A stretch of 64,000 nt of DNA from Azospirillum brasilense (GTDB lineage: Bacteria > Pseudomonadota > Alphaproteobacteria > Azospirillales > Azospirillaceae), in assembly GCF_022023855.1 (NCBI RefSeq), contig NZ_CP059451.1, positions 434,001 to 498,000 of the forward strand, in the 5' to 3' direction. The notes beneath the pieces were generated by a model. That model was not told the DNA's origin and made no database searches. It saw nothing but the letters and a program-made list of their open reading frames with translations. The position numbers and the translations under genes were made by a program. This document shows, piece after piece, positions 11,116 to 35,411 of this stretch (positions are counted from its first letter, which is position 1; each line of letters starts with the position of its first letter).

Positions 11116-11400
11116 GGTTCCGTCGGGTGTCGCGCCAAGTCTGAGTACCTGTTCGCGACTTTGGCGCAGAACTCGGCCTGCTGACGGATTTTGCCCTGAG
11201 GCGATGGAGATCAGGCGATCTTGAGGGCATCGCGATAGGTGTTCGCCAAACAACGCTAAGTGGTGCATCCACCAAGTTGTTTAGGCATTCGGGAGCGCGG
11301 CGACGCCCAGTCGGCTCGGCGCGCGATGGCGCCTGCGCCTGCGCCTGCGCCTGCGCCTGAGGACATCGCGACATTTGTTCGGCAGACAACGCCGCCATTA
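11116..11400. other. Non-coding IS debris downstream of the LysR gene
   Basis: No credible gene is present. A stretch from about 11114 resembles one at about 34717: both contain GGTTCCG, then GTCGCGCCAAG, then CTGAG. The minus strand encodes a short transposase-like tail ending ANTYRDALKIA and a stop at about 11216. A long imperfect hairpin spans 11246-11286, with outer arms CCAAACAAC and GTTGTTTAGG and an inner TGGTG/CACCA stem. These look like ends of one or more degraded insertion sequences. Confidence 0.5.
11329..11358. repeat. Five tandem copies of the hexamer GCGCCT
   Basis: Five exact consecutive copies of GCGCCT run from 11329 to 11358. They lie in non-coding IS debris, so copy-number change would not alter a protein. 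This is a simple-sequence tract prone to replication slippage. Confidence 0.85.
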
Positions 11401-12490: not shown

Positions 12491-12529
12491 CGTCCCCTCC
12501 GCGCTTGATGGCTGAGAGTCGCACGTAAC

Positions 12530-12919
12530 CGCTCTGGTGCCTACTGGGATGGCGACAGCATCTGGGCCGTGGCCAAGCGGCAGACCACCCAAGATGGGCA
12601 CGCCGAGAAGAAAGAGGCGGTCGCGCAGAACATCAACGACCGACCAGCCTTGGGATTCGTTAAATCCAATAAATTGGCCGGCGGCAATCCCGCGTATGCC
12701 ATCCAGGCAACCGGCTTTCAGCAGCCGGGTGAGATGCCGATCGATATGGCCGAGGCCTTTCTCGACATCCTCGATCAGCAGGATAGCGCCCGCCAGGCGG
12801 GGCAAAACCCAGCCTGCGGCTGCCGCGATCATGTCGAGGTTACCGCCCAGGAGAACGCCGTTGGCCCGCCCGTGACTGGTAAGGGCTGCCGTAATCTCGT
12901 TTGGTTTCGAGCATACGGT
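12530..12919 (-). pseudogene. ldcA: C-terminal half of an LD-carboxypeptidase (peptidase S66, LdcA-like)
   Basis: About 130 residues match the second half of muramoyltetrapeptide LD-carboxypeptidases, which trim D-Ala from murein peptides. The fragment shows GVLLGGNLDMI, ILLIEDVEKGLGHIDRHLTRL, CLDGIRGIAAGQF and LLGVPILGGLPLGHG, including the usual catalytic Glu and His. The N-terminal half with the nucleophilic Ser is absent. One side is fused to an IS3 transposase fragment and the other to the IS1595 element, so this is a stranded remnant. A family match by eye is reasonably sure; a functional product is not expected. Confidence 0.75.
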
Positions 12920-13147
12920 GATCGTCTCGGCCAAGGCGTTGTCATAGGAATCGCCGACGCTGCCGACGGACGGCTCGACGCCGGCTTCGGTGAGGCGCTC
13001 GGTGTACCGAATGGCGACATATTGCGATCCGCGATCGGAATGATGGACGGGGCCGCTGCCCTTGGCCGGCCGGCGGTCGTGCAGCGCCTGCTTCAGGGCG
13101 TCCAGAACGAAGCCGGCATGAGCGGTGCGCGACACCCGCCAGACCAC
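12920..13147 (-). pseudogene. IS3-family OrfB transposase, internal integrase-core fragment
   Basis: The 76 codons cover the rve integrase core of an IS3-family OrfB: VLDALKQALHDRRP, VHHSDRGSQYVAIRY, then VGSVGDSYDNALAETI with catalytic Asp residues. The start and the whole C-terminus are missing. The frame fuses directly into the LD-carboxypeptidase remnant after AETI. The complementary C-terminal part of a near-identical transposase occurs 32 kb away at 44860-45109, and the two share a 43-base stretch with one mismatch. Confidence 0.85.
12925..12967 (+). repeat. Left copy of a 43-bp direct repeat bounding a 32-kb block
   Basis: These 43 bases recur at 45061-45103 in the same orientation with a single mismatch at position 20 of the repeat. 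Both copies encode the VGDSYDNALAE stretch of an IS3-family transposase. The arrangement could be an imprint of recombination between IS copies or of integration at an IS. Confidence 0.8.
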
Positions 13148-13150
13148 ACC

Positions 13151-13507
13151 TTAACTTTCGCGATTCAGCGCTTGCTGTACGGTGCTAGCCAAGGCCGTCG
13201 GACGAAATGGCTTCTGGAGAAACGCCGTGGCGAACCCGGCCACCTCGTCCGGCAGCGGCAGAGCGCTCATCAGAATCACCGGAACCGAGGTCATCCCCGG
13301 GCGGCTTCGGGCCGCTGTCACCCACTCGGCTCCCCCCAGGCGCGGCATCATCATGTCGCTGACGATCACGTCCACGTCGGGCACGAGAAGCGCCAGAGCC
13401 TCCTGTCCGTCACCGGCCTCAATCACTTGGTGGCCGTCCTCGATGAGTACTTCAGCCAGAAGCATCCGGATGATCCCTTCATCTTCGGCCAGGAGGATTT
13501 TGGCCAC
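13151..13507 (-). CDS. Single-domain response regulator (CheY-like)
   Basis: The 118-residue protein is a receiver domain only. It has the acidic pair E8-D9, phospho-acceptor Asp51 in VIVSDMMMP, the switch Ser in VILMSA and Lys in FLQKPF. With no output domain it probably signals by protein contact, as in phosphorelays or kinase feedback. It begins 11 bases after the stop of the KaiC-like gene and is almost certainly co-transcribed with it. Its stop codon lies three bases from the IS3 fragment, so the original downstream context has been lost. Confidence 0.9.
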   Translation of the reverse strand: MAKILLAEDEGIIRMLLAEVLIEDGHQVIEAGDGQEALALLVPDVDVIVSDMMMPRLGGAEWVTAARSRPGMTSVPVILMSALPLPDEVAGFATAFLQKPFRPTALASTVQQALNRES

Positions 13508-13518
13508 GCCCGCTCCCT

Positions 13519-14913
13519 TCAGCCGGCCAGGGCGATGCCGCCCGGCCCTATGGTGTAGGTGACGAGCCGGGGGTCGAAGTCGCGATCCGGCACCTTCACA
13601 ATGGAAAACACCTTGTGCACGGCCTCATTCCGCTCGACCAGCCGCATCGTCAGCACATTGTCAACCAGCGGTGACAGCTCCGCCACGCCCTGCGCCGCCG
13701 GAGCCGGGAATTGCCCGTGGCCGGTCATCGCTGAGGTGTAGAGCGCAGTGATCCCCAGCGATCTGAGTTCGTTGCCCAGCGCCGTCAGGAAGCGCCCCAT
13801 ACGTTCGCTTTCCACAAGGTTTTGCTGAAAGCCCGCAATGCCGTCCACCACGAGGCGCCGAGCGCCGACCCGGCGGAGTTCGGCCAGCAGCCAGCCGGCC
13901 ACCTCGTCCACCAGGATTTCCGCGGGAGAGCGCCAATGCAGGTGCAGTCTGCTGGTCGCCTCCAGCCCGGCCATGTCCACGCCGATGCCACTCGCCTTGT
14001 GGCGCAGGCGCTCCGGGCTCTCGTAGAACCCCAGAAACAGACAGGGTTCGTTAACCGTCGCGGAGCCGGCGAACTGCAGGGCGGCGATCGTCTTACCGGT
14101 GCCCGATGGCCCCACCAGCAACGTGGCGGAGCCAGCGGACAGCCCGCCACGCAACATCAGGTCGAGCTTGGCGATGCCGGAGGACACCAGAGTGTTGCCG
14201 GTCGGCATGGCCACCTGCTGACCGACGACGGCCTCCAGCCGGGGGTAAACCTCGATGCCATTCTCGGAGATGCGGTAGCGGTGCCGGCCACGCACGATGC
14301 CGCCGCCGCGAAACTTGTGCACCTCCAACTCCCGCATGACCCGTCCTTCAGCCCGGACGTCAGTCATCTCGATCCAGCCGTCAACCATAGTGTATTCCGG
14401 GCTTCCAGGTTCTCGACGCGAGTTGGTCAGCAACAGCATCGTGCAACCGGAGAGGTGGGCATAGGCCTGCAGTTCATGGATGAGGCGGCGGAAGGCATGA
14501 CTGGAGGACGCGGTTTCCTCGGCGGCGAACAGGCCGTCAAGAATGACAAGTTCGGCCTCCTGCCTCTCCACCTCGGAGCGCACCAGCTTGGCCAGCCCGG
14601 GCAAGCCGTTCTTCTCAAGTTCGGCGTAGCCGCTGACGTAACTCAGCCGTCCCGGCAGGACGGCTGGATCGAAGAAGGCCATCTGGCTGAGATGGGCCAT
14701 CATGCGGTCGTGTCCTTCGGACAGCAGCGTGACGTACACGACTCGCCCATCGTCACGGACATGACTGCTGGCGATCTGGTTGGCGAGGACGGTCTTGCCG
14801 GCGCCGGGAAAGCCTTGGAGGATGTAGGCGCCTCCACGCAGCAAACCGCCATTCAGGATCAGGTCGAGGGTAGCAATGCCGGTGGAAAGACGCGCAAGTT
14901 CAGGCATGGGCAT
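13519..14913 (-). CDS. KaiC-like double RecA-domain ATPase
   Basis: The 464-residue protein has two KaiC/RadA-type domains. Walker A motifs are GFPGAGKT (34-41) and GPSGTGKT (268-275), and Walker B strands are LVILDG (122-127) and RLVVDG (353-358). Candidate catalytic glutamates lie in TLLSEGHDR and GFYESPER. Bacterial KaiC homologues outside cyanobacteria often act with histidine kinases in stress or signalling adaptation rather than in a clock; there is no kaiA or kaiB here. The downstream receiver gene is coupled to it, and a LOV-like histidine kinase lies upstream, so a shared signalling module is likely. Confidence 0.88.
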   Translation of the reverse strand: MPMPELARLSTGIATLDLILNGGLLRGGAYILQGFPGAGKTVLANQIASSHVRDDGRVVYVTLLSEGHDRMMAHLSQMAFFDPAVLPGRLSYVSGYAELEKNGLPGLAKLVRSEVERQEAELVILDGLFAAEETASSSHAFRRLIHELQAYAHLSGCTMLLLTNSRREPGSPEYTMVDGWIEMTDVRAEGRVMRELEVHKFRGGGIVRGRHRYRISENGIEVYPRLEAVVGQQVAMPTGNTLVSSGIAKLDLMLRGGLSAGSATLLVGPSGTGKTIAALQFAGSATVNEPCLFLGFYESPERLRHKASGIGVDMAGLEATSRLHLHWRSPAEILVDEVAGWLLAELRRVGARRLVVDGIAGFQQNLVESERMGRFLTALGNELRSLGITALYTSAMTGHGQFPAPAAQGVAELSPLVDNVLTMRLVERNEAVHKVFSIVKVPDRDFDPRLVTYTIGPGGIALAG

Positions 14914-21481: not shown

Positions 21482-22828
21482 ATGTCAGCCGTTCCATACA
21501 GCCTCGAATGTTGGATGGCGCCCTTCGCGGCGCTGTTCACCCGGCCGACATGGCGGCATGCCCTGGTGCTGGTCGCGGGAGCGCTCCTCACCCCGGGGCG
21601 GCGCACCGTGACCGCCGCGTTGAGCGTCATGGGGCGACGCGAGGACGGTGGCTTCGCCAAATTCCATCGCGTGCTCAATCGGAACCGCTGGTCGAGCCGT
21701 GCCGTCGCGCAACGCCTGCTCACGCTCCTGGTTACCAGCTTCGTGCCGCAGGGGCCTGTCGTCATTGGCATCGACGAGACGATCGAGCGCCGCTGGGGAC
21801 CGAAGATCAAGGCGCGCGGCATCTACCGCGACCCGGTGCGCTCCAGCCATGGGCATTTCGTCAAGGCCAGCGGTCTGCGCTGGATGGTGGTCATGCTGCT
21901 GGTCCCCATTCCGTGGGCCGGACGGGTCTGGGCGCTGCCGTTTCTGAGCGCCCTGGCGCCCTCGGAGCGGTTCGCCCGGGAGACCGGACGGCGCCATAAG
22001 AAGCTGACCGACTGGGCCCGCCAACTCCTGCTCCAGGTCCGGCGCTGGGTGCCCGACCGGCCCATGATCGCGGTCGCCGACAGCAGCTACGCGGCCATCG
22101 AACTGCTGCGCGACCTGCGGGCCCATCTTACCGTCATCACGCGCTTGCGTCTGGATGCCCGCCTGTTCGAACCGGCCCCACCGCGGCCGCCAGGCACGAT
22201 GGGACGGCCCCGGGTGTCGGGAGCCCGTTTGCCCTCCCTGACGCAGCGCTTGAACGACCCCACCACCGCCTGGCAGCGCGTTCGGGTCACCGGCTGGTAT
22301 GGTGGTGAGGAGCGCCAGTTGGACATCGCTTCCGGCACGGCCCAGTGGTATCACCCCGGCAAACAGGTTGCGATCCGCTGGGTTCTGGTGCGCGATCCGC
22401 ATGGCGCCTTCGAGCCGCAAGGCTTGCTGTGCGCCGACCTGCAGGCCGATCCGCTCATGGTGCTGTGCTGGTTCATCCGCCGGTGGGCCGTGGAGGTGAC
22501 CTTCGCCGAGGTCCGCCGTCACCTCGGCGTCGAGACCCAACGGCAATGGTCGGACCCGGCGATCGCCCGCACCACCCCGGCGCTGCTCGAGCTGTTCTCT
22601 CTGGTCACGCTGTGGGCCAACGAAATCTCGGCGGAGATGGTCATCCGACCACGCGCCGCGGGATGGTATGCCAAGGCCGAACCGACCTTCAGTGACGCCC
22701 TGGCCGCGGTCCGCTTCCGGCTCTGGAGCGAGACGACTTTCTCGCTGTCAACGCTGGGCGGGGAGAGCGCGAAACTCCTCGGCGCCGGGCTCAACCGCCT
22801 CATTCAGGCCGTTTGCTTTCCGGCGTGA
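21482..22828 (+). CDS. DDE-type transposase (IS4/IS701-like)
   Basis: The 448-residue protein has the pattern of large IS4-superfamily transposases. An N-terminal region (GALLTPGRRTVTAALSVMG) is followed by the first catalytic Asp in VVIGIDETIERRWG, the second in MIAVADSSYAAIELL, and a candidate glutamate in FIRRWAVEVTFAEVRRHLG. It is full length with a GGGAG ribosome binding site. It is the mobilising enzyme of the surrounding element and is divergent from the passenger gene. Confidence 0.88.
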   Translation: MSAVPYSLECWMAPFAALFTRPTWRHALVLVAGALLTPGRRTVTAALSVMGRREDGGFAKFHRVLNRNRWSSRAVAQRLLTLLVTSFVPQGPVVIGIDETIERRWGPKIKARGIYRDPVRSSHGHFVKASGLRWMVVMLLVPIPWAGRVWALPFLSALAPSERFARETGRRHKKLTDWARQLLLQVRRWVPDRPMIAVADSSYAAIELLRDLRAHLTVITRLRLDARLFEPAPPRPPGTMGRPRVSGARLPSLTQRLNDPTTAWQRVRVTGWYGGEERQLDIASGTAQWYHPGKQVAIRWVLVRDPHGAFEPQGLLCADLQADPLMVLCWFIRRWAVEVTFAEVRRHLGVETQRQWSDPAIARTTPALLELFSLVTLWANEISAEMVIRPRAAGWYAKAEPTFSDALAAVRFRLWSETTFSLSTLGGESAKLLGAGLNRLIQAVCFPA

Positions 22829-22841
22829 TTGAGCAAAGTCG

Positions 22842-23624
22842 AGCTCAGGCTGCCTTCCCTCGTCGGCTATCTGCTGGCCGGTGTCGCGGCCGGTCCCTTC
22901 ACGCCCGGCTTCGTTGCCGACGAGGGGCTGGCATCATCGCCGTCGGCTGGCTCATCGTCGAGGATCTCGCCATGGTGCTGGCTCTGGTGCTGTTGCCGGC
23001 CCTGGCGGGCATGCTCGGCGGGACGCCGCACGGCGCGGCGGGCGAAACCGGCGGCATCGCCTTGGCCGTGTCCCTGGCGCTGACGCTGGGCAAGGTCGGG
23101 GTGTTCCTGGCCCTCGTGCTGGTGGTCGGCACGCGCGCGATCCCGTGGCTTCTGATGCAGGTCGCCCGGACCGGCTCGCGCGAGCTGTTCACGCTCTCGG
23201 TGCTGGCGACCGCGCTCGGCATCGCCTACGGCTCGGCCGAGCTGTTCGGCGTCTCCTTCGCTCTCGGGGCCTTCTTCGCCGGCGTCGTCCTGAGCGAGAG
23301 CGACTTCAGCCATCAAGCCGCGGCCGACGCGCTGCCGCTTCAGGATGCCTTCGCGGTGCTGTTCTTCGTCTCGGTCGGCATGCTGTTCGACCCGATGATC
23401 CTGGTCCACGAGCCGTTCGCCGTGCTCGCCGTCGTCCTGGTCATCGTCCTCGGCAAGACGCTGGCGGCCTTCGGCATCGTGATGGTGGTCGGCTACCCGG
23501 CCTCGACCGCCCTCACCGTGTCGGCCAGTCTGGAGCAAGTCGGCGAGTTCTCCTTCATCCTGGCCAGCCTCGGGGTGACGCTCGGGCTGCTGCCGCCGGA
23601 GGGACGCGACTTGATCCTCGCGGG
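22842..23624 (+). pseudogene. Remainder of the CPA2 cation/proton antiporter, deleted and truncated
   Basis: The fragment resumes with LRLPSLVGYLLAGVAAGPFTPGFVADEGLA, then loses about a hundred residues. It continues in a different frame as IIAVGWLIVEDLAMVLALVLLPALAG through GVSFALGAFFAGVVLSESDFSHQAA, LFFVSVGMLFDP and SLEQVGEFSFILASLGV. It ends at LPPEGRDLILAG, where an IS630 remnant begins. The C-terminal membrane helices and any RCK/TrkA-N domain are missing. With the upstream IS split, the gene carries at least three separate lesions and cannot make a working exchanger. Confidence 0.85.
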
Positions 23625-24497
23625 TGATGTTGCCGGGGACCGGCAGTTTGGCCGAGGTGTGCCAGCCGGCCTGATCGAGCAGGACGACGGCATGGGCCCC
23701 GGGCGCCACGGCGCGGGCGATCTCCTCCAGGTGCAGCGCCATCGCCTCGCTCGTGCAGCGCGGCAGCACCAGGGCCGCGCCTTTGCCCTGGGCCGGGCAG
23801 ATCGCGCCGAACAGATAGGCCGAGCGCGTGCGCTGATCGTGCTGGGCCGCCGGTCGGGTGCCCCGGCGTGCCCAGCGGCGGGTGATTTTGTTCTTCTGGC
23901 CGATGCGGGCTTCGTCCTGCCACCAGACCTCTATGGGCTTGCCGGCGGCCTCGTGCGCGGCGATCTGCGCCAGCAGGGCGGGGAAGTTTTTTTGAACGCC
24001 TCGGCGGCGCCGGGATCCTCGGCGTGGTGGCGGGGGCGGGCCGACAGCTTGCGCAAACCCAGAGCGCGCAGTTCCCGGCTCAGCGTCTGCTTGGAGACGG
24101 TTACACGGAACTCGTTCCAGAGCCAGTGCAGCAGGTCGGCAATCCGCCAACGTACGACCCCATGCACCGCCGGGATCGGTCCATCCTCGACGACCTGGCA
24201 CAGGGCCGCCCGGTGATGGTCGGCCAAGCGCGGCTGCGGGCCCGGCGCCTTGCCGGTCAGCAAGCCCGCCGGTCCCGCGTCATTGAAACGCAGCACCCAG
24301 TCGCGCACCGTCTGCAAGCCGACCCCGCCGATCTGCGCCGCGGCCAAGCGCGGTTCTCCGTCGTAGATCGTCGCCAGGGCGAGCAGCCGACGGACTTGGC
24401 CGGGATCGTGAGAGGCACGGGCAAGCCGACGCAGAGCGGCGGCGTCGTAATCGCTGCGTATCGGAACCGGAGCGGCCATCGTGGACCTCGTCGCCAT
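23625..24497 (-). pseudogene. IS630-family transposase, frameshift type, 3' truncated
   Basis: The first frame (ATG 24497) encodes the helix-turn-helix part (DPGQVRRLLALATIYDG, AAAQIGGVGLQTVRDWVLRF) and a linker. At 23987-23993 the minus strand has seven consecutive A, and the family sequence continues in another frame (FPALLAQIAAHEAAGKP, VWWQDEARIGQKNK, AVVLLDQAGWH). An A7 slippery run at this point is the usual site of programmed frameshifting in IS630 elements. The protein ends at LPVPGNIT where antiporter DNA begins, so the third catalytic residue (Glu) is gone. Confidence 0.85.
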
Positions 24498-24564
24498 GGT
24501 CTCTCCGGTGAATCACGCGGCACGCTCCTCCGAGAATCACCGCATGAGGCGTACTCCACAGAAC

Positions 24565-24851
24565 TTGGTATTACGGCCATCTTGAGAGCACCGGAATCGG
24601 CCCGGTCGAGGATGTCGTTTCGCCCTTCGCCTTTCTCGACGTCGGGTACGGCCACAATTACAACTACGACGCTCTTCCTGGCATCGGCGAGCAGGCCGAC
24701 ACGACGCTGGTGGGGGTGGGGGGTTGGCCTCGACTACACGCTCCTGCAGTCCCTGCAGCTTGGGGTAAATGTCGGAGTCGCTCTCACCGATGGGCCGGAA
24801 ACCAGCCGTGGGACGCTCACCGCCCAGGCCCGGATGCTGGTTTCTTTCTGA
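24565..24851 (+). pseudogene. C-terminal beta-barrel fragment of a TpsB-like outer-membrane protein
   Basis: About 90 codons encode FLDVGYGHNYNYDALPG, then VGVGLDYTLLQSLQLGVNVGVAL and RGTLTAQARMLVSF. This is the final barrel strands of a ShlB/FhaC/HecB-type transporter, with the usual C-terminal Phe. An extra G in the run at about 24714-24721 shifts the frame in the middle. The N-terminal POTRA part is absent, removed at the IS630 boundary. The family assignment is by pattern only. Confidence 0.55.
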
Positions 24852-25192
24852 AAACCCGTTTCAGATGTTGAAAAGGGCGGCATGCGCTTCCGAGTTCGGC
24901 GTGGAATTGGGTGATGTGGTCGTCGCGCCGCACCGGGGGATGCACCAAGTCCTGGGATTGATTGGGGTACCGGAAATGCGAGCATGTCGCGCAGAGCGGC
25001 GACCCGCTGGACACGGATCGCCCGTCGGCGCGCAGGCGGTTCAACACCGAGCCAGTCCGAACGTTCTTCGGTCGCGGTCGAGCGGCAGTGCGGACAGCGC
25101 ATTCGTCACCTCCTCAAGAGAGGTGATCCTCTACGGCCGCCCCGCCGTCACGACCAAGCTGGCGCGAGGGTTGACGGAACCGACACGATCCC
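24852..25192. other. Intergenic region with no recognised gene
   Basis: Open frames on both strands lack ribosome binding sites and family features. A minus-strand frame starts MRCPHCRSTATEERSD, a zinc-ribbon-like start that could be a decayed transposase or regulator, but it does not continue convincingly. Confidence 0.35.
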
Positions 25193-25567
25193 CTACGGCA
25201 ATTTGGAAAAGCTGAACAGCTTCGAGACGATCTTCCAGTTCCCCTCAAGCTTCACCAGCGACAAATAATCGGTGAAGAGCTTCGCCCCGATGGACAGCTG
25301 AACCACCGCGAGGGCGATGTCCGGGCTCGATTTGTGAATGGACAGTATCCTGTCATGCCGTGTCTCCCCGCGGCTTGCCGGACTCTCGCGGTTGGCGACG
25401 GATTCGTAAACCTTGGGCATGGAATCCTGATCCAGCTTCCCGTCGATGACGCAGGTCAAGCGGCAGGACTCGTGGAAAGCCATTTTCAATTTTTCGACAT
25501 CCGCTTCGTACCAGCCGTCGAAGTAAGGCTGGAGCGCGCGGGCGATCTCGTAAAAATCGGAATCCAT
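25193..25567 (-). CDS. NTF2-fold protein (putative lumazine-binding/SnoaL-like family)
   Basis: The 124-residue protein begins DFYEIARALQPYFDGWYEADVEKLKMAFHESC, a typical NTF2-like opening. It ends DYLSLVKLEGNWKIVSKLF, the closing strand pair of the Lumazine_bd_2 group. The fold forms a cone-shaped ligand pocket and is found in biosynthetic enzymes and stress proteins. It is the last gene of the minus-strand NRPS-linked run, 49 bases after the MFS gene, and could be a tailoring or binding protein. No catalytic residues can be assigned. Confidence 0.75.
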   Translation of the reverse strand: MDSDFYEIARALQPYFDGWYEADVEKLKMAFHESCRLTCVIDGKLDQDSMPKVYESVANRESPASRGETRHDRILSIHKSSPDIALAVVQLSIGAKLFTDYLSLVKLEGNWKIVSKLFSFSKLP

Positions 25568-25616
25568 GGTGTATGTCCCTCGGGCTCTGCGATGGTGAAA
25601 GCGGTGTATTGTGCGG

Positions 25617-27068
25617 TCAGCTCGGCAAGGCGGAATCGGCCGCCCAGGCTGCCGGCGCCGCTCCCTCCCGATGCGGCACGCCGTTGTGTTCGGCCGGGAG
25701 GCCGCGCTCAGTGGGCGCGAGCGGCGACCGGGACGGCGGCGCTCCCGGCAGGTTCCCGAATGCTGTTTCCCGAAGGATCAGCGCCGCGGTGAAGGTGATG
25801 GCGGACAAGGTGGCCATGTAGGCGCCGACCACCCAGACGCCGCCTCCCGACCAGACCATCAACGCCGTCGCAATCACGGGCGCTCCACCCCCGCCCAGGG
25901 CCGACGCCATCTGGTAGGCGAAGGAGGAGCCGCTGTAGCGGATGCGCGTTTCGAACAGCTCGGGAATGAGCGCGGCCAGCGGAGCGAACATCAGCCCATG
26001 CCCGAGATTCATCGCCACTACGATGGTGGCGATGACCACCCAACTCTGCCCCGACTGCAGCAGTTCGAACAACGGGAACGCCATGATGGCGCTGACAGCG
26101 GCCCCGAGCAGGTAGATCGGCCGTCGGCCGACGCGGTCGGAGAGATGCCCGAACAGCGGAATCGTGACCAGTTCCATCATGGCGGCGATGCAGACGCCGA
26201 GAAGGTAGGTCTCGACCGGGACGCTGCCTTTGTCCTTGATGAAGCTGATGCCGAAGACCGTGATGATGAAGACCCACGTCACCTCGGATATCTTCAGCCC
26301 CAAGACCGTCAGGCAAAGCCGCCAGTGATCCCGCAGAACCTCGGCGAAGGGCAACCGGGACAAACGGTTGCCGGCCCGGACCGCCTCGAACGCGGGTGAT
26401 TCCGCGAGTCGGAAACGGACGAAGGCGCCGACGGCGATCAGCACGATGCTGAACAGGAAAGGAAGCCGCCATCCCCAACTGAGGAGAGCGTCCTGGGGCA
26501 GGCTCTTGAGCAGCAGAAAGGCGGCGGTCGAAGCGGCGACCCCGATGGGAAAACCCGTCTGCACGAGGCTGCCGTAGAAGCCGCGTCTGTCCCTGACGTG
26601 TTCCACGACCAGCAGCGTCGCCCCGGCCCATTCACCGCCGACGCCGATACCTTGCACGAGCCGAAGCAGAATCAGCGGCAGGGGCGCCCAGATCCCGATC
26701 TGGTCGTAGGTCGGCAGAAGGCCGATCAGAAAGGTCCCCGTTCCCATCATCAGCATCGTGGCGGCCAGCATGTTCTTGCGCCCCAGCCGGTCGCCGAAAT
26801 GCCCGAACAGCACGCCGCCCAGAGGGCGGGCCAGGAAACCGACTGCGAAGGAGCCGAACGAGAACAGCGTTCCGACCAGTTCATCGAAAACCGGAAAGAA
26901 AAGTTTATTGAAGATGAGCGCCGAAGCGACCCCGTAGATGAGGAAATCGTAGAACTCGATCGCGGTGCCGATCGTGCTCGCCCAGATGATCCTCTGTTGG
27001 CTCGACCCGTTGCCCAAGGAAGCCTCGCGTGCGTTTGCCGTTGAATAGACGCCGGGTGGAGGGGCCAT
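25617..27068 (-). CDS. MFS transporter, metabolite:H+ symporter (MHS) family
   Basis: The 483-residue protein has 12 predicted helices and MHS signatures: ASTIGTAIEFYDFLIYGVAS in helix 1, GHFGDRLGRKNML between helices 2 and 3, RLVQGIGVGGEWAGA in helix 4 and GHLSDRVGRRPIYLLG in the second half. MHS members usually take up organic acids, betaines or similar compounds. ATG 27068 gives the standard N-terminus; the longer frame to 27377 overlaps the GST gene. It lies 40 bases after the GST stop. In this cluster it could import a precursor or move the product. Confidence 0.88.
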   Translation of the reverse strand: MAPPPGVYSTANAREASLGNGSSQQRIIWASTIGTAIEFYDFLIYGVASALIFNKLFFPVFDELVGTLFSFGSFAVGFLARPLGGVLFGHFGDRLGRKNMLAATMLMMGTGTFLIGLLPTYDQIGIWAPLPLILLRLVQGIGVGGEWAGATLLVVEHVRDRRGFYGSLVQTGFPIGVAASTAAFLLLKSLPQDALLSWGWRLPFLFSIVLIAVGAFVRFRLAESPAFEAVRAGNRLSRLPFAEVLRDHWRLCLTVLGLKISEVTWVFIITVFGISFIKDKGSVPVETYLLGVCIAAMMELVTIPLFGHLSDRVGRRPIYLLGAAVSAIMAFPLFELLQSGQSWVVIATIVVAMNLGHGLMFAPLAALIPELFETRIRYSGSSFAYQMASALGGGGAPVIATALMVWSGGGVWVVGAYMATLSAITFTAALILRETAFGNLPGAPPSRSPLAPTERGLPAEHNGVPHREGAAPAAWAADSALPS

Positions 27069-27108
27069 GCGGCTGGCGGATGAACACTTCCGGTGCCCGC
27101 CGACCGTA

Positions 27109-27720
27109 TCAGAGATGCCCGACCGCACGGATGACCGACGGCAACGCCGCGATGCGGTCGGCCCAGCCCAGCAGCCGGTCGAATCCGCCGGCCCCCTCAA
27201 GCAGCCCCCGGCGCATCCGCACAACCGGAAAGAGCGCCAGGTCGGCGAGCGACAGCTCGTCGGCCAGGAAATCCCGGCCGGTGAGCCGCGTCTCGCATCC
27301 CCGCATGATGTTGAGCAGGCGCCCTTCCAGGAAGGCGGTGGTCGCGGGGGTGGCGTCCGGAACATCGCGTCCGACATAGAGGAGGGCGGCGCTGGCCGGG
27401 TTGGCGTCGCTGACCGCCAGCATGAACCATTGCAGCGCCGCCAGCCGGCGGCGCGGATCCGGCGGGATCAGGCGCCCGGTCCGTTCCGCGACGTGCAGCA
27501 TGATCGCTCCCGACTGGGACAGGACGATCGGCTCTCCGTCCGTCCGGTGGTCGATCATTACCGGCACCGCGCCCACCGGATTCAGGGCCAGGAATTCGGG
27601 GGTCCTGTGCTCGTTGCGCAGAAGGTCGAGCTTGTGCCCGCGGAAGGCCGATCCGCCTTCCTCAAGAGCGATCAAGGCCCGCAGGCTGTTGCCGGAGTTG
27701 GCGTAATAGAGGTCGATCAT
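27109..27720 (-). CDS. Glutathione S-transferase family protein
   Basis: The 203-residue protein has a thioredoxin-like N-terminal domain (MIDLYYANSGNSLRALIALEE, then NPVGAVPVMIDH and the glutathione-contact segment VLSQSGAIMLHVAE) and an all-helical C-terminal domain with DFLADELSLADLALFPVV. The N-terminal Ser (NSGNSLR) is the likely catalytic residue. It overlaps the upstream gene by four bases (ATGA). It may conjugate or isomerise an intermediate of the NRPS cluster, or give self-protection; both are inference. Confidence 0.88.
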   Translation of the reverse strand: MIDLYYANSGNSLRALIALEEGGSAFRGHKLDLLRNEHRTPEFLALNPVGAVPVMIDHRTDGEPIVLSQSGAIMLHVAERTGRLIPPDPRRRLAALQWFMLAVSDANPASAALLYVGRDVPDATPATTAFLEGRLLNIMRGCETRLTGRDFLADELSLADLALFPVVRMRRGLLEGAGGFDRLLGWADRIAALPSVIRAVGHL

Positions 27721-28673
27721 GCGTCCTGCCCCACAGGTCCCAGGAAGGCGGCAGCCGGCGCCGGGGTCCCGGTACCGTCTCCGGGAGTGCCGCCGCGTTC
27801 GTCCATGATGCGGTCGAGACAGGCGTCGGCTTCCGCGAAGGCCTTGGACCGGCTCTTGGGCGATGGCAGGTAATGGTTGAAATAACGGGCGCCTTCGGTC
27901 AGCGGCCCCAGCACCCACAGGCGCGGCTGCGGCCGGCCGGCCCTGTCCAGGGGGTGGCTGTCGGGGTCGATGTCGATGCCGCTGGCGGGAGCGTCGCCGT
28001 GGCGGTAGGCACGGATGCGCCCGGCCCCGGCGAGGCCCGAAAGGAGCGGCGATGCGCTGCCCTCCACCTCCGGCTGGTCGAGATGGCCGGCGATGAGACG
28101 ATCCACCGTCTGGCTGTGCGGCCGGCCGAGCGCCGTGGAGGTGATCGTCCAACGTCCGAGCGATGCGTCGAAACGGCAGTCCGGCGCCGGCCCGAACGGT
28201 GCCCGGACGATGCCGGCGTCGATCAGCGCAAGCAATTCCTCGTTGCGACTCAGCGGCGGTCCGATCACCGCGCGGTTGATCAACGGAGCGATCCCCGTCC
28301 GGAAATCTTGATGGGATGCCGGGGTGAGGCCGCCGAAATCGACGGCCGACCGGATCTGCGGCCGCAACACCCTGAAGAGTTCCAGGGCAGCCTTGGTCGG
28401 GCTGTCCGCCTCGCCGAGCCGCGACTGACCGATGTCCTCGACGAGCAAGCTTCGCACCGCCGCCTGGTAGGCGGCGCTGTCCGGTTGGCTCCGGATCGCG
28501 GGGCAGAAGAAGGCGGCCTCGGGATCGAACGCGCCGTGACGCGCGGCGTAGCCAGCGGCACAGTCCCCGAAACGGCGGTTTCTCCACGCATCCTCAAGCG
28601 TGCGCGCCACCGCGTCGGCAGCGTCGACCCCATCGGTCAGGAGCGCCGTCCGGCTGTGAAAGACGACCGTCAC
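27717..28673 (-). CDS. FAD/NAD(P)-binding-like protein lacking the N-terminal Rossmann domain
   Basis: The 318-residue product resembles the C-terminal part of large FAD/NAD(P)-binding proteins. It has the late segment PQPRLWVLGPLTEGARYFNHYLPSPKSRSKAFAEAD and preceding ALVV-like strands, but no GxGxxG nucleotide loop. The start is uncertain; GTG 28673, five bases after the upstream stop, is compact, while TTG 28739 would overlap. It may work as a subunit with the upstream FAD oxidoreductase, whose own Rossmann loop could serve both. It overlaps the GST gene by four bases. Confidence 0.55.
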   Translation of the reverse strand: MTVVFHSRTALLTDGVDAADAVARTLEDAWRNRRFGDCAAGYAARHGAFDPEAAFFCPAIRSQPDSAAYQAAVRSLLVEDIGQSRLGEADSPTKAALELFRVLRPQIRSAVDFGGLTPASHQDFRTGIAPLINRAVIGPPLSRNEELLALIDAGIVRAPFGPAPDCRFDASLGRWTITSTALGRPHSQTVDRLIAGHLDQPEVEGSASPLLSGLAGAGRIRAYRHGDAPASGIDIDPDSHPLDRAGRPQPRLWVLGPLTEGARYFNHYLPSPKSRSKAFAEADACLDRIMDERGGTPGDGTGTPAPAAAFLGPVGQDA

Positions 28674-28678
28674 CAGGA

Positions 28679-30313
28679 TCAGCCGTCCCGCGCCTCGTCC
28701 CTCAGCCGTTCGAACAGGCCGAGGCCGGACGGGGTCCAAGGCCGGATGCAGTAGCGCCTGGGGCCGTCGAGCATGCCCATGGCCTGCGCCTTCTCATAGC
28801 GGCTGGGAAAGAAACGTCGGGCGGTGTCCTCCACCGCGCGGGCGAGATCGGCGATCTGGTCGGGATCCATGGCGGCGATGTCGTGACCGATGAACCCATG
28901 ACCGGAGCCGAGATGGATGACGTCGCGGCCGTCGCGATCGCGGGCGCCGATCACGTTGGCGCCCTGCGCCGCTCCCGCCCCGGCGGCGTAGCCGGCGCGG
29001 GTGATCTTGATGGGGCGGTCCAGCTTCGGCGTATCGCCGGGCAGCGTGATCCACATGCCGATGACCGGCGCGACCGCCTCGCGGCAGTCGAAGGCCCGAA
29101 GAAGGCCGTTGCCCGTGGCGCCGACCGAGATCACGTAGCCATCGGCCTCCAGAACCTCCCCGTTCGCCAGGAAGGTCCGGCAACCGCCACGCCCCCCGTC
29201 CTCGCGGCACTCCACGCGGCTGTTCCAGACAAATCGCGCACCCTCGCGGGTCAGGTGCCGGATGAGGGCATGGCCGAAGCGGTGGATGTTCAGCGAAAAG
29301 CCGACGACCTCCAGGGCGCCGCCGACCGCGCCGCCATCGACGGCCTCGCGCAGCGACGGAAACTCCTCGCCCAGGCGGACCGGGTCGATCTCGCGCTGCA
29401 GGGCGCCGATGGCCCGCTCCTTCTGGCGCGCCGCGGCGTAGCCGTCCGCATCGGGATAGAGACGCAGCAGCCCGTCATGGAATCCCACTCCCTCGAACAG
29501 GTCCGGACGGTCGGCCAGAAGCTGCCGCCACAGGACGTGGCTCTCCCGGTTGACCGCGACGAGGTCCCGCTCGAAGCGGGCGGCGAGCCATTGCGGCACG
29601 CGCTCGAACTCTTCGATCCACTGCTGGTCGGTGGCGCTCAAACGGTCCGGGGCGCGGGACAGCCAGCCGCCGTCGGCGACGAGCCTGCGGAAGTCGGTGT
29701 TGGTGGTGGCGTCGACGGCGCCTCCCCGGTAATGGTGGTGCCGGGTTTCGTTCAGCGAGAAGATGCGGGCGTCGTTGCCTCCGAAGGTGCAGCCCTGGTC
29801 GCGCCAGTCCCCGTCGGGATCCAGCGGATCCGGGCTGGCGTCGTGGCATTCGACCTCGTAACCCTGCTGGGCGAGGCTGTAGGCGGTGACGAGGTTGACG
29901 ATTCCCGCGCCGATCAGCACGACGCGCCGCCGGCCGTTGCGCCCCGTCGGCCGGAAACTGCGCTCTCCCACCTCCGTGCTGGCGGCTTCCGGCAGGCGGG
30001 CGGTGTTTCTCTGCTCGATCCATTCGAACGCCTTCACCTCCGGCTGGCCATCGCCCGTGGCGTCGATGCGGTGGAGTTCGATGTTGGGAGGCAGCTGCTC
30101 GTAACCCGTCCCGTCCTCGGGCCCGTCCGCGATATGCACCAGGAGGAGGGGGCGGTCGTACCCGACGGCCGACCGCCACCGGTCGAGCAGGAGGGGATCG
30201 ACGGGCTTGCGGGTGACGAGGGCGTCGGGCTGGTGGGCGACCAACGCGACGCGCGTCGCGTGGGGGGCCTTGATGGCGAGATCGGGCCGGTAGACGATGT
30301 TCTCGTCCACCAT
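28679..30313 (-). CDS. FAD-dependent oxidoreductase (DAO/DadA-like) with an extra N-terminal domain
   Basis: The 544-residue protein has a D-amino-acid-oxidase-type fold from residue 129 on. The Rossmann loop is RRVVLIGAGIVNLVTAYSLAQQG, followed by substrate-domain strands and the C-terminal RPWTPSGLGLFE and LGSGHGFIGHDIA motifs. Such enzymes dehydrogenate amino or imino acids. The first 128 residues (MVDENIVYRPDLAIKAPHAT...) are not part of the DAO fold and I do not recognise them. It sits 92 bases downstream of the EamA exporter gene in the NRPS run. Oxidation of an amino-acid moiety before or after condensation is a plausible role. Confidence 0.82.
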   Translation of the reverse strand: MVDENIVYRPDLAIKAPHATRVALVAHQPDALVTRKPVDPLLLDRWRSAVGYDRPLLLVHIADGPEDGTGYEQLPPNIELHRIDATGDGQPEVKAFEWIEQRNTARLPEAASTEVGERSFRPTGRNGRRRVVLIGAGIVNLVTAYSLAQQGYEVECHDASPDPLDPDGDWRDQGCTFGGNDARIFSLNETRHHHYRGGAVDATTNTDFRRLVADGGWLSRAPDRLSATDQQWIEEFERVPQWLAARFERDLVAVNRESHVLWRQLLADRPDLFEGVGFHDGLLRLYPDADGYAAARQKERAIGALQREIDPVRLGEEFPSLREAVDGGAVGGALEVVGFSLNIHRFGHALIRHLTREGARFVWNSRVECREDGGRGGCRTFLANGEVLEADGYVISVGATGNGLLRAFDCREAVAPVIGMWITLPGDTPKLDRPIKITRAGYAAGAGAAQGANVIGARDRDGRDVIHLGSGHGFIGHDIAAMDPDQIADLARAVEDTARRFFPSRYEKAQAMGMLDGPRRYCIRPWTPSGLGLFERLRDEARDG

Positions 30314-30405
30314 CAGCGGCTCGATGGATGGGGAAAGCCGATACGCGACCAGTATATTTTCATGTCCAGGTCCTTCTCAGGCCGGTTTGCCGGCATCCGT
30401 TTTTC

Positions 30406-31317
30406 TCAAGCCCGCCCTCGCGCGGGCGTGGTGATGGCTGCGACACCCGCCATGACCAGGACGAGGCCGGCGAGGGCGGTGGCGCTTATCGCTTCGCCGA
30501 GGAACAGCGCGCCGGCGCAGACGCCGATTGGCACCCGCAGATAGGCTTGGCTGGTGGTTCCCACCGGCCCAAGCGTCTTCAGCAGCCGGAAGTAGATGAC
30601 GAAGGCGAGCGCGGTGGAAAAGAGCGCCAGCAGGAGGGTCGCCCCCATGGATGCGGCGGATGGGGTCAGCGTCCAGGGCCGGTCGATGAGGAGGCTGGCG
30701 GGAACCAGCACGACGGCGCCGCACACCATCGATCCGGCCGCCGGCAGCATGGCGTTCACCCCCTTGAAGTTGCGGCCGTAGATGGCCGCCACCGCGTAGC
30801 ACAGGGTCGCGGCAACCAACGCCGCCTGGGCCGCGATGCCTTCGCCGAAGCCCTGCGCCGCTTCCGGACCGATCAGCACGACGATGCCCGCCAACCCCAG
30901 CAGCGTGCCGGCAAGCTTGCGGAAGGTGGCCGGCTCGTGACCGGGGAGCAGCCACAGGAGCACGAAGGTCAGGATCGGAGCCGCCGAGTTGATGATCGTC
31001 GCGACGCCCGCCGTGACCGTCTGTTCCGCCCACGCGATTAGCGTGAAAGGCAGAACGCTGTTCATCAGGGCTTGGAAGCCGAACTTGCGCCACAGGGCGG
31101 GGTCGCGCGGGAACTCCTGTCCGCTCATCCGCATCAGGCCGTACAGGACCCCGCCGGCAAGCACCGTGCGCACCGCCATCAGGGTCACCGGCGGTATGGT
31201 GCCGACGGCGATCTTGATCAGCGTGTACGATGATCCCCAGAGGGTCGCCAGGGTCAGCAGCAGGAAAAGTTCGAGAAGCGGAAGCCTGGATGGCAGGGGC
31301 GTTGAGGTGGACGTCAT
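30406..31317 (-). CDS. EamA/DMT-family transporter
   Basis: The 303-residue protein has ten hydrophobic segments arranged as two EamA repeats (TLATLWGSSYTLIKIAVG...LRTVLAGG; ATLCYAVAAIYGRNFKG...LVPASLLI). It includes the usual ALMNSVLPFTLIAWAEQ and LGEAISATALAG elements. Members of this family often export amino acids or small metabolites. Its start overlaps the NRPS stop by four bases (ATGA), tying it directly to the synthetase, so product export is the natural inference. Confidence 0.88.
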   Translation of the reverse strand: MTSTSTPLPSRLPLLELFLLLTLATLWGSSYTLIKIAVGTIPPVTLMAVRTVLAGGVLYGLMRMSGQEFPRDPALWRKFGFQALMNSVLPFTLIAWAEQTVTAGVATIINSAAPILTFVLLWLLPGHEPATFRKLAGTLLGLAGIVVLIGPEAAQGFGEGIAAQAALVAATLCYAVAAIYGRNFKGVNAMLPAAGSMVCGAVVLVPASLLIDRPWTLTPSAASMGATLLLALFSTALAFVIYFRLLKTLGPVGTTSQAYLRVPIGVCAGALFLGEAISATALAGLVLVMAGVAAITTPARGRA

Positions 31318-34300
31318 GGCGGCCCTGTGAGTGTCGGCATTGCGGGAATCGGCGGCGGAGCGGAAAGTGAAGGGTCCGCCGGCGCCGTAGGGGCGAGGGA
31401 GATGCGGGAGGTCACGCTCGCCAGTTCGGAGTCCGGGGTTCGATCCAGAAGCGCCGCCGGTGTCGCGACCCCGGCCGCCAGGACCGCGAGATAGCGGCCG
31501 GCAAGCGTGGTCATCTCCTCGGGCGTGAACAGGGCCGAGCGGTGCTGGAACTCCAGCGCGATGGCGTCCGAATGGTCGCGGACCATCAGCAGCAGGTCGT
31601 ATTTCAACTCGAACCCGAGGTCGCGGAGGGCGCTTTCGCGCGTCTCAACCGGCACCGACGGCATCGGCATGTAATTGATCGAAAAGCCGGTGAGCGGAAA
31701 TCGGTCGGCTTCAATCGGCAGGCCGAGTTCGGCCATCAGCTCGTCGTACTGGAACGCTTGGTGTGCCGCTGCCTCCGGCACTTGGCGCCGCATCGCGGCG
31801 ACCAGATCGGCAAAGCGGCTTTCCGGGGTCAGGCGACTGCGCAGCGTCACCAGCGAAATGAAGTTGCCGATCAGGGACACGGTGTCCGGGTGGTCGCGGC
31901 CGGCGATGGGGGTCGCCACGACGAGGTCGTCGGCCATGCACAGCCGGTGGCAGAGCTGCAAATAGCCGCTGAGCAGGATGATGAAGGGCGTGGTGCGGTG
32001 ATCGCGCGCCGCCTTCCGGATGGAGGCGGTCAGATCGTCGGGCAAGGTGAGCTTGAGGGCGGCGGCGCGGGCGCGGGGCGCCTTGTTCCCATGGGGAGAG
32101 AGGCATGGCCGGCGGTAAGGGGCGGCGTGCAGGGACCGCCAGTAGGCGCGGTGCGCGTCATCGGCGGCGGGCCCCCCCGGTGACATGAACCATTCGGAAA
32201 AATCCCGGTACTGGCGTGGCAGGTCGGGCAAAGCAAGGAGCGCTCCGTCCGCCCCGAGCAACAGCCGCAGCTCGTCCGACAGGAGGCCCTGGCTGCGCCC
32301 GTCGCTGACCATGTGATGGACGTTCCACAGCAGACGCTTGCCGTCCGGCCCGGTGTGGACCAGCGTGGCGCGGAACAGCGGCCAGACGTCGATAGGGATG
32401 ATCCTTTCGCCCTCCCCGACCCGCAACGCCACCAGGACCGAGGAGCGGGCCGCGGGGTTCAGGGTCGACAGGTCGATTTCGGCGACGTCGACCGGGCGGT
32501 CCGGTCCATACTCCTGCCACAGCTCTCCATCGGCTTCGGCAAAGGAGACTTGCAGGCTGTCGTGCCGGGCCACGATGGTCCGCAACGCGTCGGCGACCGA
32601 GAGCCGGCTCGCCGTGGCCGGCAGCGGGATGTCGGCGACCATATTGCACCAGGAGCGGTTTCCATGCGCCACGAAGGTGGCGTGGTAGCGCCGTTGCTGG
32701 GGTGACAGGCGGTGCCGATGCCGCCGGTCGGCGATCGGAAGCGATGACAGGGAGCGGAGCGGCGCATGGCCGAGATGCGCGGCGAGCCGCGCCGGCGTAG
32801 CGTGATCCAACAACAGCCGTGGCTCGACGACGCGGTTCAAGGTCTCTGACAGACGGGCGCAGATTTCCGCCGCTGCCAGGGAGTTGCCTCCGTTTTCGAA
32901 GAAGTCGTGCTCGACGCCGATATCGGCGCGCCCGAACACCCGGCGCCACGCCGACAGGACGGAGGCCTCCAGGGGATCGCGCGCCTCGACCGTCGGTACG
33001 GAGGCCGCCACGGGGGTGACGGCGTCGAGGGCTCGGCGGTCGAGCTTTCCGTTCGGGGTCAGGGGCAGGCTGGCCAAGCGGATGAACAGGCCGGGGACCA
33101 TCGCGGACGGCAGCCGCCCGGACAGGTGGTTGCGCAGCTCCCTCGCCAGATCGTCCATCGGATTGGCCGCCGGATCGTGCGGCGTGTCGGCGTCGGAGAC
33201 GTAATAAGCGACCAGCACCGGCTCGCCATGCCCGGAGGTCCGGGCGACTACGGCGGCGTTGCGCACCGCGGGATGTTCCTGGAGTTCGGCCGCCACGCCG
33301 TCCGGCTCGATCCGGACGCCGTTGATCTTCACTTGATGGTCGATTCGTCCCTGGAGGTGCAGCAGTCCCTCCTCGTCGAGAAAACCGAGATCGCCGGTCA
33401 GGTAGACGGGGCCGTCGTCGAACTCGACGAAGCGCGCCGCCTGCTCCTCCGGCGCGTTCGTGTAACCCAGGGAAGGGTAGCGGGTCCGGATCGCCACCTG
33501 CCCGGACTCGCCTCGCGGTTGCCGTGCGCGGCTGTCCGGCCCGAGGATGATGGCTTCCGTCAACGGCAGAGGGCTGCCGACCGGCTGGATGCCGGGGAGC
33601 GGTCTGGCGGGCACCCGGTAGTGGAACTTGGCGAGCGTGGTTTCGGTAGGGCCGTAAAGGTTGATGACCTCGGTGTTCGGAAACCGTGAACGCCAATCCG
33701 CCACCAACGCTGACGTCAGCGGCTCGCCGGCGAACAGGGTCCGCGTCAGCCGGCGGTTGATGAAAACGTTGTCCGTCGCGCCCAGCCAGGAGCGCGCGAG
33801 GCTCGGCACGGCGTGCATGAGGGTCACTCCCGACGCATCCAGCCAGCCCAGGACCGAACGCCCGTCGCGCGCCATGCCCGTAGGCGGCAGGCACAGGGTC
33901 GCGCCCGAGATCAGCGGCATCAGCATGTCGCGCAGCACGACGTCGAAGGACAGGCCCGTCAACAGGCTGACCTTGTCGCCCGGCCCTACCGAAAAACTGT
34001 CGCGTTCCCATTCCAGGAACTGGGCAAGGCCGCCTGCGCGGCCCAGAACGCCTTTCGGCGTCCCAGTCGTTCCGGATGTGAAAAACACATAGGCTGCGGC
34101 ATCGGGGTCCAGCCGGGCGCCGGCGACCGGGTCTTCGTCCATCCCGGCGGAGGAAGCGGGGCGGAACCCGATCGGCAGGATCGGAACCTCGACACGGCCC
34201 GGTGCGTGACCCGATTCCGTTTCGGGTTGTCCGATCCGCAGAAGCGCCTTCGGCCTTGCCTGCTCGACCATGACCTTGCGGCGTTGCAACGGCAGGTCGG

Positions 34301-34580
34301 GGCTGATGAGAACAAACACGACGCCGGCGCACAGGCAACCCAGCGTGGCTGCAACGAGGTCCCGAGTCACCTCGCCTTCAACGACCACCCGATCGCCCGC
34401 GTGGATGCCATGATTTTGCAGTTGGCGCGCCACACCTTGAGCCAAGTCACGCATCGCCGCATAACTGGTCGTCTGCTGCCCCGCCTCAACCGCCGTTGCC
34501 TCGCCATATCTCCGCGACGCAACTAGGAAAAGATCATAGGGAAATTTCTGTTCCAAATCGGGCATACATTGGTCTGTCAT
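31314..34580 (-). CDS. Single-module nonribosomal peptide synthetase (A-PCP-C)
   Basis: The 1088-residue protein has an adenylation domain (about 15-520), a peptidyl carrier domain (about 530-605) and a condensation domain (about 618-1050). Core motifs are intact: A3 FFTSGTTGTPKG (166-177), A5 NLYGPTETT, A7 YLTGDLG, A8 GRIDHQVKINGVRIEPDG and A10 NGKLDRR with Lys512. The carrier Ser567 is in GGNSLAA and the condensation site is HHMVSDG (755-761). There is no thioesterase, so the terminal C domain may release the product by amide or ester formation with a free acceptor. The Pro-rich C-terminus (SAPPPIPAMP) is a linker or tail. It is the first gene of the run, and the amino acid activated is not predicted. 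Confidence 0.93.
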   Translation of the reverse strand: MTDQCMPDLEQKFPYDLFLVASRRYGEATAVEAGQQTTSYAAMRDLAQGVARQLQNHGIHAGDRVVVEGEVTRDLVAATLGCLCAGVVFVLISPDLPLQRRKVMVEQARPKALLRIGQPETESGHAPGRVEVPILPIGFRPASSAGMDEDPVAGARLDPDAAAYVFFTSGTTGTPKGVLGRAGGLAQFLEWERDSFSVGPGDKVSLLTGLSFDVVLRDMLMPLISGATLCLPPTGMARDGRSVLGWLDASGVTLMHAVPSLARSWLGATDNVFINRRLTRTLFAGEPLTSALVADWRSRFPNTEVINLYGPTETTLAKFHYRVPARPLPGIQPVGSPLPLTEAIILGPDSRARQPRGESGQVAIRTRYPSLGYTNAPEEQAARFVEFDDGPVYLTGDLGFLDEEGLLHLQGRIDHQVKINGVRIEPDGVAAELQEHPAVRNAAVVARTSGHGEPVLVAYYVSDADTPHDPAANPMDDLARELRNHLSGRLPSAMVPGLFIRLASLPLTPNGKLDRRALDAVTPVAASVPTVEARDPLEASVLSAWRRVFGRADIGVEHDFFENGGNSLAAAEICARLSETLNRVVEPRLLLDHATPARLAAHLGHAPLRSLSSLPIADRRHRHRLSPQQRRYHATFVAHGNRSWCNMVADIPLPATASRLSVADALRTIVARHDSLQVSFAEADGELWQEYGPDRPVDVAEIDLSTLNPAARSSVLVALRVGEGERIIPIDVWPLFRATLVHTGPDGKRLLWNVHHMVSDGRSQGLLSDELRLLLGADGALLALPDLPRQYRDFSEWFMSPGGPAADDAHRAYWRSLHAAPYRRPCLSPHGNKAPRARAAALKLTLPDDLTASIRKAARDHRTTPFIILLSGYLQLCHRLCMADDLVVATPIAGRDHPDTVSLIGNFISLVTLRSRLTPESRFADLVAAMRRQVPEAAAHQAFQYDELMAELGLPIEADRFPLTGFSINYMPMPSVPVETRESALRDLGFELKYDLLLMVRDHSDAIALEFQHRSALFTPEEMTTLAGRYLAVLAAGVATPAALLDRTPDSELASVTSRISLAPTAPADPSLSAPPPIPAMPTLTGPP

Positions 34581-34609
34581 GTATACTTTTTATGCCAATG
34601 ATTAGAAGA

Positions 34610-34630
34610 AAATCTCTCTTAGCGAGATTT
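34610..34630 (-). promoter_or_regulatory. Hairpin in the NRPS 5' leader
   Basis: A perfect 7-base stem (AAATCTC with GAGATTT) encloses a 7-base loop, 30 bases before the NRPS start codon. It lies between the predicted promoter and the gene, so it would be in the leader RNA or act as an operator. No clear ribosome binding site precedes the ATG, which is unusual in this window. Confidence 0.45.
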
Positions 34631-34636
34631 AATCGG

Positions 34637-34665
34637 TTAATCGCGCGAAAAAACCTTGCTGTCAA
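34637..34665 (-). promoter_or_regulatory. Predicted sigma-70-type promoter of the NRPS cluster
   Basis: On the minus strand a perfect TTGACA (34665-34660) is followed after 17 bases by GATTAA (34642-34637), an imperfect -10 hexamer; GATTAA is repeated just downstream. The surrounding 100 bases are markedly AT-rich compared with the coding DNA. This is a sequence-based prediction. Confidence 0.5.
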
Positions 34666-34872
34666 TGATACTTTTGATTGAGGGACCTGGGGGCCATGCG
34701 GCGTCCCGCGCATCGACTGGTTCCGCAGGCGTCGCGCCAAGCCTGAGCTCACGACGCGGAAGACCCGGCGAGCCGGGCCCGTGAGTCACGCGACGGCGAG
34801 CATGTCGCGCGGGGCGGTCATCATCGACTTGATCGGGGATGATCGACGCGATGATGGCGCTTCGCACGATGC

Positions 34873-35000
34873 TTGAGAAGAACACCCGTCGAGCGCCGTG
34901 CCGCCCTGGTCGAGGTGATGCTCTCCAACGGCCGCGTGCTGCACATCGCCGAAGACATCGCCCCCGCCATGTTGCGTCGGCTGGTCGGCGGGCACCGTCA
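34873..35000 (+). pseudogene. C-terminal fragment of an IS66 accessory protein (TnpA-like)
   Basis: The frame RRAALVEVMLSNGRVLHIAEDIAPAMLRRLVGG matches the conserved C-terminal part of IS66-family TnpA/OrfA proteins, where a V-x-L-x-NGRV-x-x strand pair precedes a D-x-A-x-L-x-R helix. The helix-turn-helix N-terminus is missing, and after about 35000 the sequence degenerates. It is an isolated remnant. Confidence 0.55.
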
Positions 35001-35411
35001 ACTTGTCGCAGATGGCGGTTCGGGAGGACGCGGATTGCCCACGGACGTCCCGGCTCGGGCGGTCACACGACCAGCCGCGCGCTGGCGATCTCAGCCCAGA
35101 TGGCAAAATGGCCTGGGTACGTGCGCCGCACTTGGTTGGGCCGCTCAATGGCCAGGTCGCGCAGCATGTTCAGAGTTCAATCATTCACACATTGAACATC
35201 ACTAATCAGGCAGCATTACAGTTCGTATTGAGAATTTTTGCCGCAATCCCCGCCATAAATTGAGTGTAGTGCCATAACTCCTAATGAAGGGACGGATTAG
35301 TCAGTATGGAAGTCTTTCATCGACAATGCCCTTTGCATAATATGGGTATGTCTGGTCGCGTTCCGGCATGATTATTACGTTAACATTCCCATACGACCGC
35401 TTGTAATGACC

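Follow-up and report, generated by a model that had tools for sequence, protein, structure and literature searches.

The question raised by this locus is whether the seven tightly spaced genes at positions 25193-34580 of the window (the whole 64,000-nucleotide stretch of Azospirillum brasilense DNA analysed here) still direct the synthesis of a small metabolite. All seven lie on the minus strand, as do the features described below unless stated otherwise, and the original prediction read them as a small-metabolite cluster built on an NRPS. As a general idea this is sensible for an undamaged cluster, but what the window carries is a decaying copy. The explanation we favour, and consider likely, is that the window holds a horizontally acquired, decaying and partly deleted copy of an uncharacterised cluster that combines an NRPS, an N-oxygenase and an amine oxidase, and that this strain probably no longer makes the mature compound. 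The genes present, the deletion, the homologies, the shared gene order and the lack of copies in relatives are observed; substrates, the sequence of steps, the class of product and the loss of function are deduced from them.

The NRPS gene (31314-34580, 1088 aa) is an open frame encoding a single A-PCP-C module, as had been proposed: Pfam finds AMP-binding, AMP-binding_C, PP-binding and Condensation in the protein, and every core motif sought is present and intact (A3, A4, A5, A7, A8 and A10, with NGGNSLAA in the PCP and HHMVSDG in the C domain). The proposed lack of a thioesterase was also borne out, as no such domain was found. The A-domain code, derived by alignment alone with a PheA segment as the reference, is DVRHLALLAK, in which Asp235 is kept and the unusual Arg239 suggests that the substrate may carry a polar or anionic side chain; solved structures were also considered for assigning the specificity, and the nearest A domains do not decide it. 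Elsewhere in the family, A domains of larger NRPSs (L061, L062, L063 and L064) also carry the code DVRHFALLAK or DVRHLALLAK, so the window is not alone in having this specificity. NRPSs of the AmbB type have the same domain order (A-T-C) with a small exporter nearby, and the AMB tailoring genes are unlike those of the window. Identity with a known characterised cluster was rejected, since neither the A-domain code nor the gene combination was matched in the literature searched.

The end of the NRPS gene overlaps a gene for an EamA/DMT exporter (30406-31317, 303 aa, Pfam EamA), by 4 nt, in line with the predicted overlap, and the spacing throughout the cluster is operon-like; promoter and terminator scans gave results at chance level. 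Beyond two flavoenzyme genes, here termed FAD1 and FAD2, lie those for a glutathione S-transferase family protein (27109-27714, 202 aa, Pfam GST), an MHS-family MFS transporter (25617-27101, start approximate, Pfam MFS) and an NTF2-fold protein (25193-25567, 124 aa, Pfam PF12893). The MHS and NTF2-fold genes were considered as core members and were not confirmed as such in any relative. All seven genes of the predicted list were therefore located, but its FAD oxidase and its "partial flavoprotein" are not two native genes; they are parts fused through a deletion of about 1.1 kb together with frameshifts.

The fusion can be read directly at the deletion junction (28660-28690). Translated in three frames, this region gives FERLRDEARDG and a stop in the FAD1 frame and, in the FAD2 frame, GAGRLILVT followed by VVFHSRTALL, so that the end of FAD1 (RLILVT) runs straight into the middle of FAD2, at about residue 318, and 1,100 bp have been lost relative to a Methylomagnum plasmid on which both genes are intact. 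The deletion has joined the 5' part of the FAD1 gene to the 3' part of the FAD2 gene. The "partial flavoprotein" (27717-28663), to which Pfam assigns no family, is a 3' remnant of FAD2, a monooxygenase of the aspartate-N-hydroxylase type; it aligns convincingly to FAD2 only from about residue 318, retaining residues ~318-600 of 603, and its N-terminal FAD-binding part is gone. Homology over the full length, with both dinucleotide-binding domains, is found for the Methylomagnum FAD2 and not for that of the window.

FAD1 itself (28679-30313) encodes an amine oxidase of the DAO fold (Pfam DAO) with an N-terminal domain, and carries two frameshifts, being retained up to about residue 545 of the 595-aa intact form. 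There is a frameshift near the 3' end, and the protein stops ahead of the GGHNTGGFAQAP segment, the NTGGF core of which is missing in the window, although every FAD1 relative that is complete in an alignment of 19 rows retains it. At the 5' end (30314-30365), comparison with the relatives L020 and L022 places two extra bases after the native start ATGAAAAT, which shift that start out of the ILVAYRLSP frame; a downstream in-frame ATG could provide an alternative start. The frame that remains open comprises 544 codons and its GC3 is still 0.89, so the decay looks recent.

The small frameshifts, known here from the assembly alone, might be read errors, since some long-read assemblies often contain small indels. 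Such errors hardly account for the deletion, as they do not typically remove 1.1 kb from within a contig of 863 kb; in addition, residues 319-600 of FAD2 occur in the genome at this locus only, and the lost half (residues 1-318), when sought elsewhere in the assembly, was absent. We therefore regard it as very improbable that the deletion and frameshifts are artefacts of assembly and the real cluster is intact. Somewhat less remote, and still unlikely, is the idea that the cluster functions as it stands, with a shortened but active FAD1, a FAD2 remnant in a non-catalytic or accessory role and an NRPS whose product is a simpler small amide, exported through EamA. The NRPS, EamA, GST, MHS and NTF2-fold genes are indeed all open with their motifs intact, and the surviving FAD1 frame has a coding-like GC3, yet FAD1 has lost a conserved C-terminal segment and has a displaced start, and FAD2 lacks its entire N-terminal FAD-binding part. 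On the reading of a decaying copy, the deletion and frameshifts have destroyed FAD1 and FAD2 while the NRPS and exporter are still open, so that the strain has probably lost the ability to make the mature compound. Both oxidations have most likely been lost in this strain, and the oxidative tailoring that had been envisaged is probably not working here.

What the two flavoenzymes would do when intact was approached through their relatives. A model of FAD1 built from an intact relative (L027, pLDDT 88) matches CmiS2 and glycine oxidases over about 350 residues of its oxidase domain (Z 34-35, 16-20% identity), and the DAO fold with its FAD-binding Rossmann motif is found both by Pfam on the window protein and by the fold match on the relative; judged by this model, FAD1 is an amine oxidase of the glycine-oxidase/CmiS2 fold. 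It shares this fold with CmiS2, from the cremimycin pathway, and with the glycine oxidase ThiO, but differs from them in its extra N-terminal domain and, in the window, in the lack of the C-terminal segment. Modelled alone (pLDDT 85), the N-terminal domain has no significant match in Foldseek (best E 0.016), and a second structure aligner places D-2-hydroxyacid dehydrogenases first (14 top rows, Z 8.0-9.6, against 7.6 for the next fold), which is a weak match.

Intact FAD2 has a full-length match to one solved protein (8cp2/8cp5, E 1e-58), which is the L-aspartate N-hydroxylase of Streptomyces sp. V2, an enzyme that yields nitrosuccinate and, by decarboxylation, 3-nitropropionate (PMC10404684). 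Intact FAD2 relatives align end to end with this FzmM/CreE-type enzyme and conserve the equivalent of its Asn62, and the helical-domain residues Arg409, Arg412 and Arg416 are conserved in nine of nine FAD2 relatives as well as in the window remnant. In contrast, the aspartate ligands Arg13, Arg276 and Arg577 are replaced in the nearest intact relatives by W, by T, E or M, and by S, respectively, and the window remnant, which is without the N-terminal half, has A at position 276 and S at 577. These alignments support an assignment of FAD2 to the aspartate-N-hydroxylase type and do not support aspartate as its substrate, since the arginines that hold aspartate are not conserved.

To see how widely the gene set recurs, one genome per species was scanned, giving 38 loci. 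On one short contig of a Candidatus Muproteobacteria MAG, an NRPS C domain (50% identity), EamA (65%) and FAD1 (46%) stand in the same order as in the window, and a second Muproteobacteria MAG contig starts inside FAD2 (45%), as expected if the two adjoin, from which we infer their adjacency. In a Hyphomicrobiales MAG, an A domain of the identical code comes after FAD1, and no FAD2 was detected in that MAG. The Methylomagnum ishizawai plasmid pRS11DPr3 (NZ_AP019786) carries an uncharacterised cassette of intact, adjacent FAD1 (595 aa, 10837-12624 of that record) and FAD2 (603 aa, 12621-14432) genes followed by GST, in the order of the window, and then a haloacid dehalogenase-type gene and a DMT exporter; it differs from the window in having no NRPS on the record, in the extra haloacid dehalogenase-type gene and in the integrity of both flavoenzymes. 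Together with the window, both MAGs, two Thiogranum and two Paenibacillus, it forms a FAD1 clade with 100/99 support, in which the inner branches are long, the inner order is unsettled and all members but the Hyphomicrobiales one have FAD2 at the same locus or in the same genome. FAD2 near FAD1 is also found in Burkholderia and in one Streptomyces. The whole set of NRPS, EamA, FAD1, FAD2, GST, MHS and NTF2-fold genes was present in none of the relatives found.

In the Methylomagnum and Thiogranum cassettes FAD1 and FAD2 are present, and searches of the record or genome gave no NRPS match. This speaks for a rival reading in which two unrelated modules have been joined in the window, one an NRPS-EamA pair and the other FAD1-FAD2-GST, a cassette normally independent of any NRPS. 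Against this stand the conserved order of NRPS, EamA and FAD1 in the distant Muproteobacteria MAG and the FAD1 that adjoins an NRPS of identical A-domain code in the other MAG, and we hold such a joining to be improbable. The order conserved in an unrelated bacterium argues instead that the set is a real unit, of which the window retains a damaged copy.

Several other associations were seen in the scan. The three Burkholderia loci (L030, L031 and L058) have FAD2 and FAD1 within about 4 kb. A conserved cassette of rhizobia, Paracoccaceae and Trinickia (L021, L033, L035, L037, L040, L043, L045, L055 and L059) combines a FAD1-type oxidase with gamma-glutamylcyclotransferase-like and aspartate-aminotransferase-like genes, a LysE exporter and, in most cases, a GNAT acetyltransferase. 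A gamma-glutamyl theme recurs in this cyclotransferase, in the gamma-glutamyltransferase that follows FAD1 in L031 together with a PLP enzyme, and in the 5-oxoprolinase-type genes after FAD2 in L074. An EamA exporter lies near FAD1 in gammaproteobacterial and cyanobacterial loci (L027, L029, L032 and L034), the cyanobacterial loci also having formyltransferase-like and glutamine-amidotransferase-like genes.

The setting of the cluster points to an Azospirillum host and to probable arrival from elsewhere. The window is internal to the 863-kb contig of a 7.39 Mb assembly of 8 contigs, and from about 35160 rightward the DNA is ~95% identical to plasmid p2 of Azospirillum argentinense MTCC4035, which marks the host as an Azospirillum. 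To the left of this flank, a segment of ~10.7 kb (24453-35160, no strand assigned; about 24.45-35.16 kb) was matched by nothing in a megablast comparison with 72,556 plasmid records. No copy of the NRPS cluster was found in the Azospirillum relatives searched; among 82 genomes of the family (the own genome included), strong NRPS matches beyond the own genome lay only within larger NRPSs, at 35-48% identity, and FAD1 had no relative above the cut-off outside the own genome in 289 genomes of the class or in 398 of the phylum. The segment is accessory and was probably acquired horizontally. No conserved flank could be tied to its left boundary. To the left of the insert lie a DDE_5 transposase-like gene (21482-22828, plus strand) and a helix-turn-helix transposase-like frame (23931-24497, minus strand), and between them sits a truncated Na/H exchanger gene (about 22813-23640) that is intact, with a ybaL annotation, in Azospirillum sp. 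TSH58, so that the left edge of the insert lies in disturbed DNA.

In its intact form, the cluster would begin with the A domain loading the PCP with one alpha-amino acid, which the terminal C domain would then release by condensation onto an untethered acceptor. FAD2 would N-oxygenate an anionic amino acid, FAD1 would oxidise a Calpha-N bond and EamA would export the product; the oxidations may target the acceptor, the loaded residue or the product. The earlier proposal, that a single activated amino acid is condensed with a free acceptor and the product has its own exporter, does justice to the NRPS and EamA genes, which keep their order with FAD1 in an unrelated bacterium. A partial parallel is the azaserine azs cluster, in which a small NRPS couples a nitrogen-oxidised carboxylic acid to an amino acid, the NRPS (AzsO) being Cy-A-CP with a separate thioesterase and the N-N precursor deriving from hydrazinoacetic acid (PMC10445470). 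The window differs in its A-PCP-C architecture and in an N-oxygenase, FAD2, from another family, and the markers of the azaserine (hydrazinoacetate) type, a lysine N-hydroxylase and a cupin-MetRS N-N-forming pair, were not evident on inspection of the insert genes.

The best clue to the chemistry is the aspartate-N-hydroxylase-type origin of the FAD2 fragment. With both flavoenzymes broken, a shunt product is the most that metabolomics could be expected to reveal in this strain, and the locus is a warning that gene content alone is an unsafe basis for such work here. A poor source of the compound itself, the broken copy points to more complete relatives in which an aspartate-N-hydroxylase-type enzyme stands beside an amine oxidase, one branch of them with a one-module NRPS. 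More tentatively, these may represent an undescribed pathway family of Pseudomonadota and Bacillota, pairing an aspartate-N-hydroxylase-type N-oxygenase with a CmiS2-fold amine oxidase that bears a 2-hydroxyacid-dehydrogenase-like domain, of which one branch might serve a one-module A-PCP-C NRPS of conserved specificity and so yield N-oxidised amino-acid amides (nitro, oxime or N-N bonded) of a new class. Pathways to nitro, diazo and hydrazine natural products draw on N-oxygenases of this kind, which makes it sensible to mine the intact loci.
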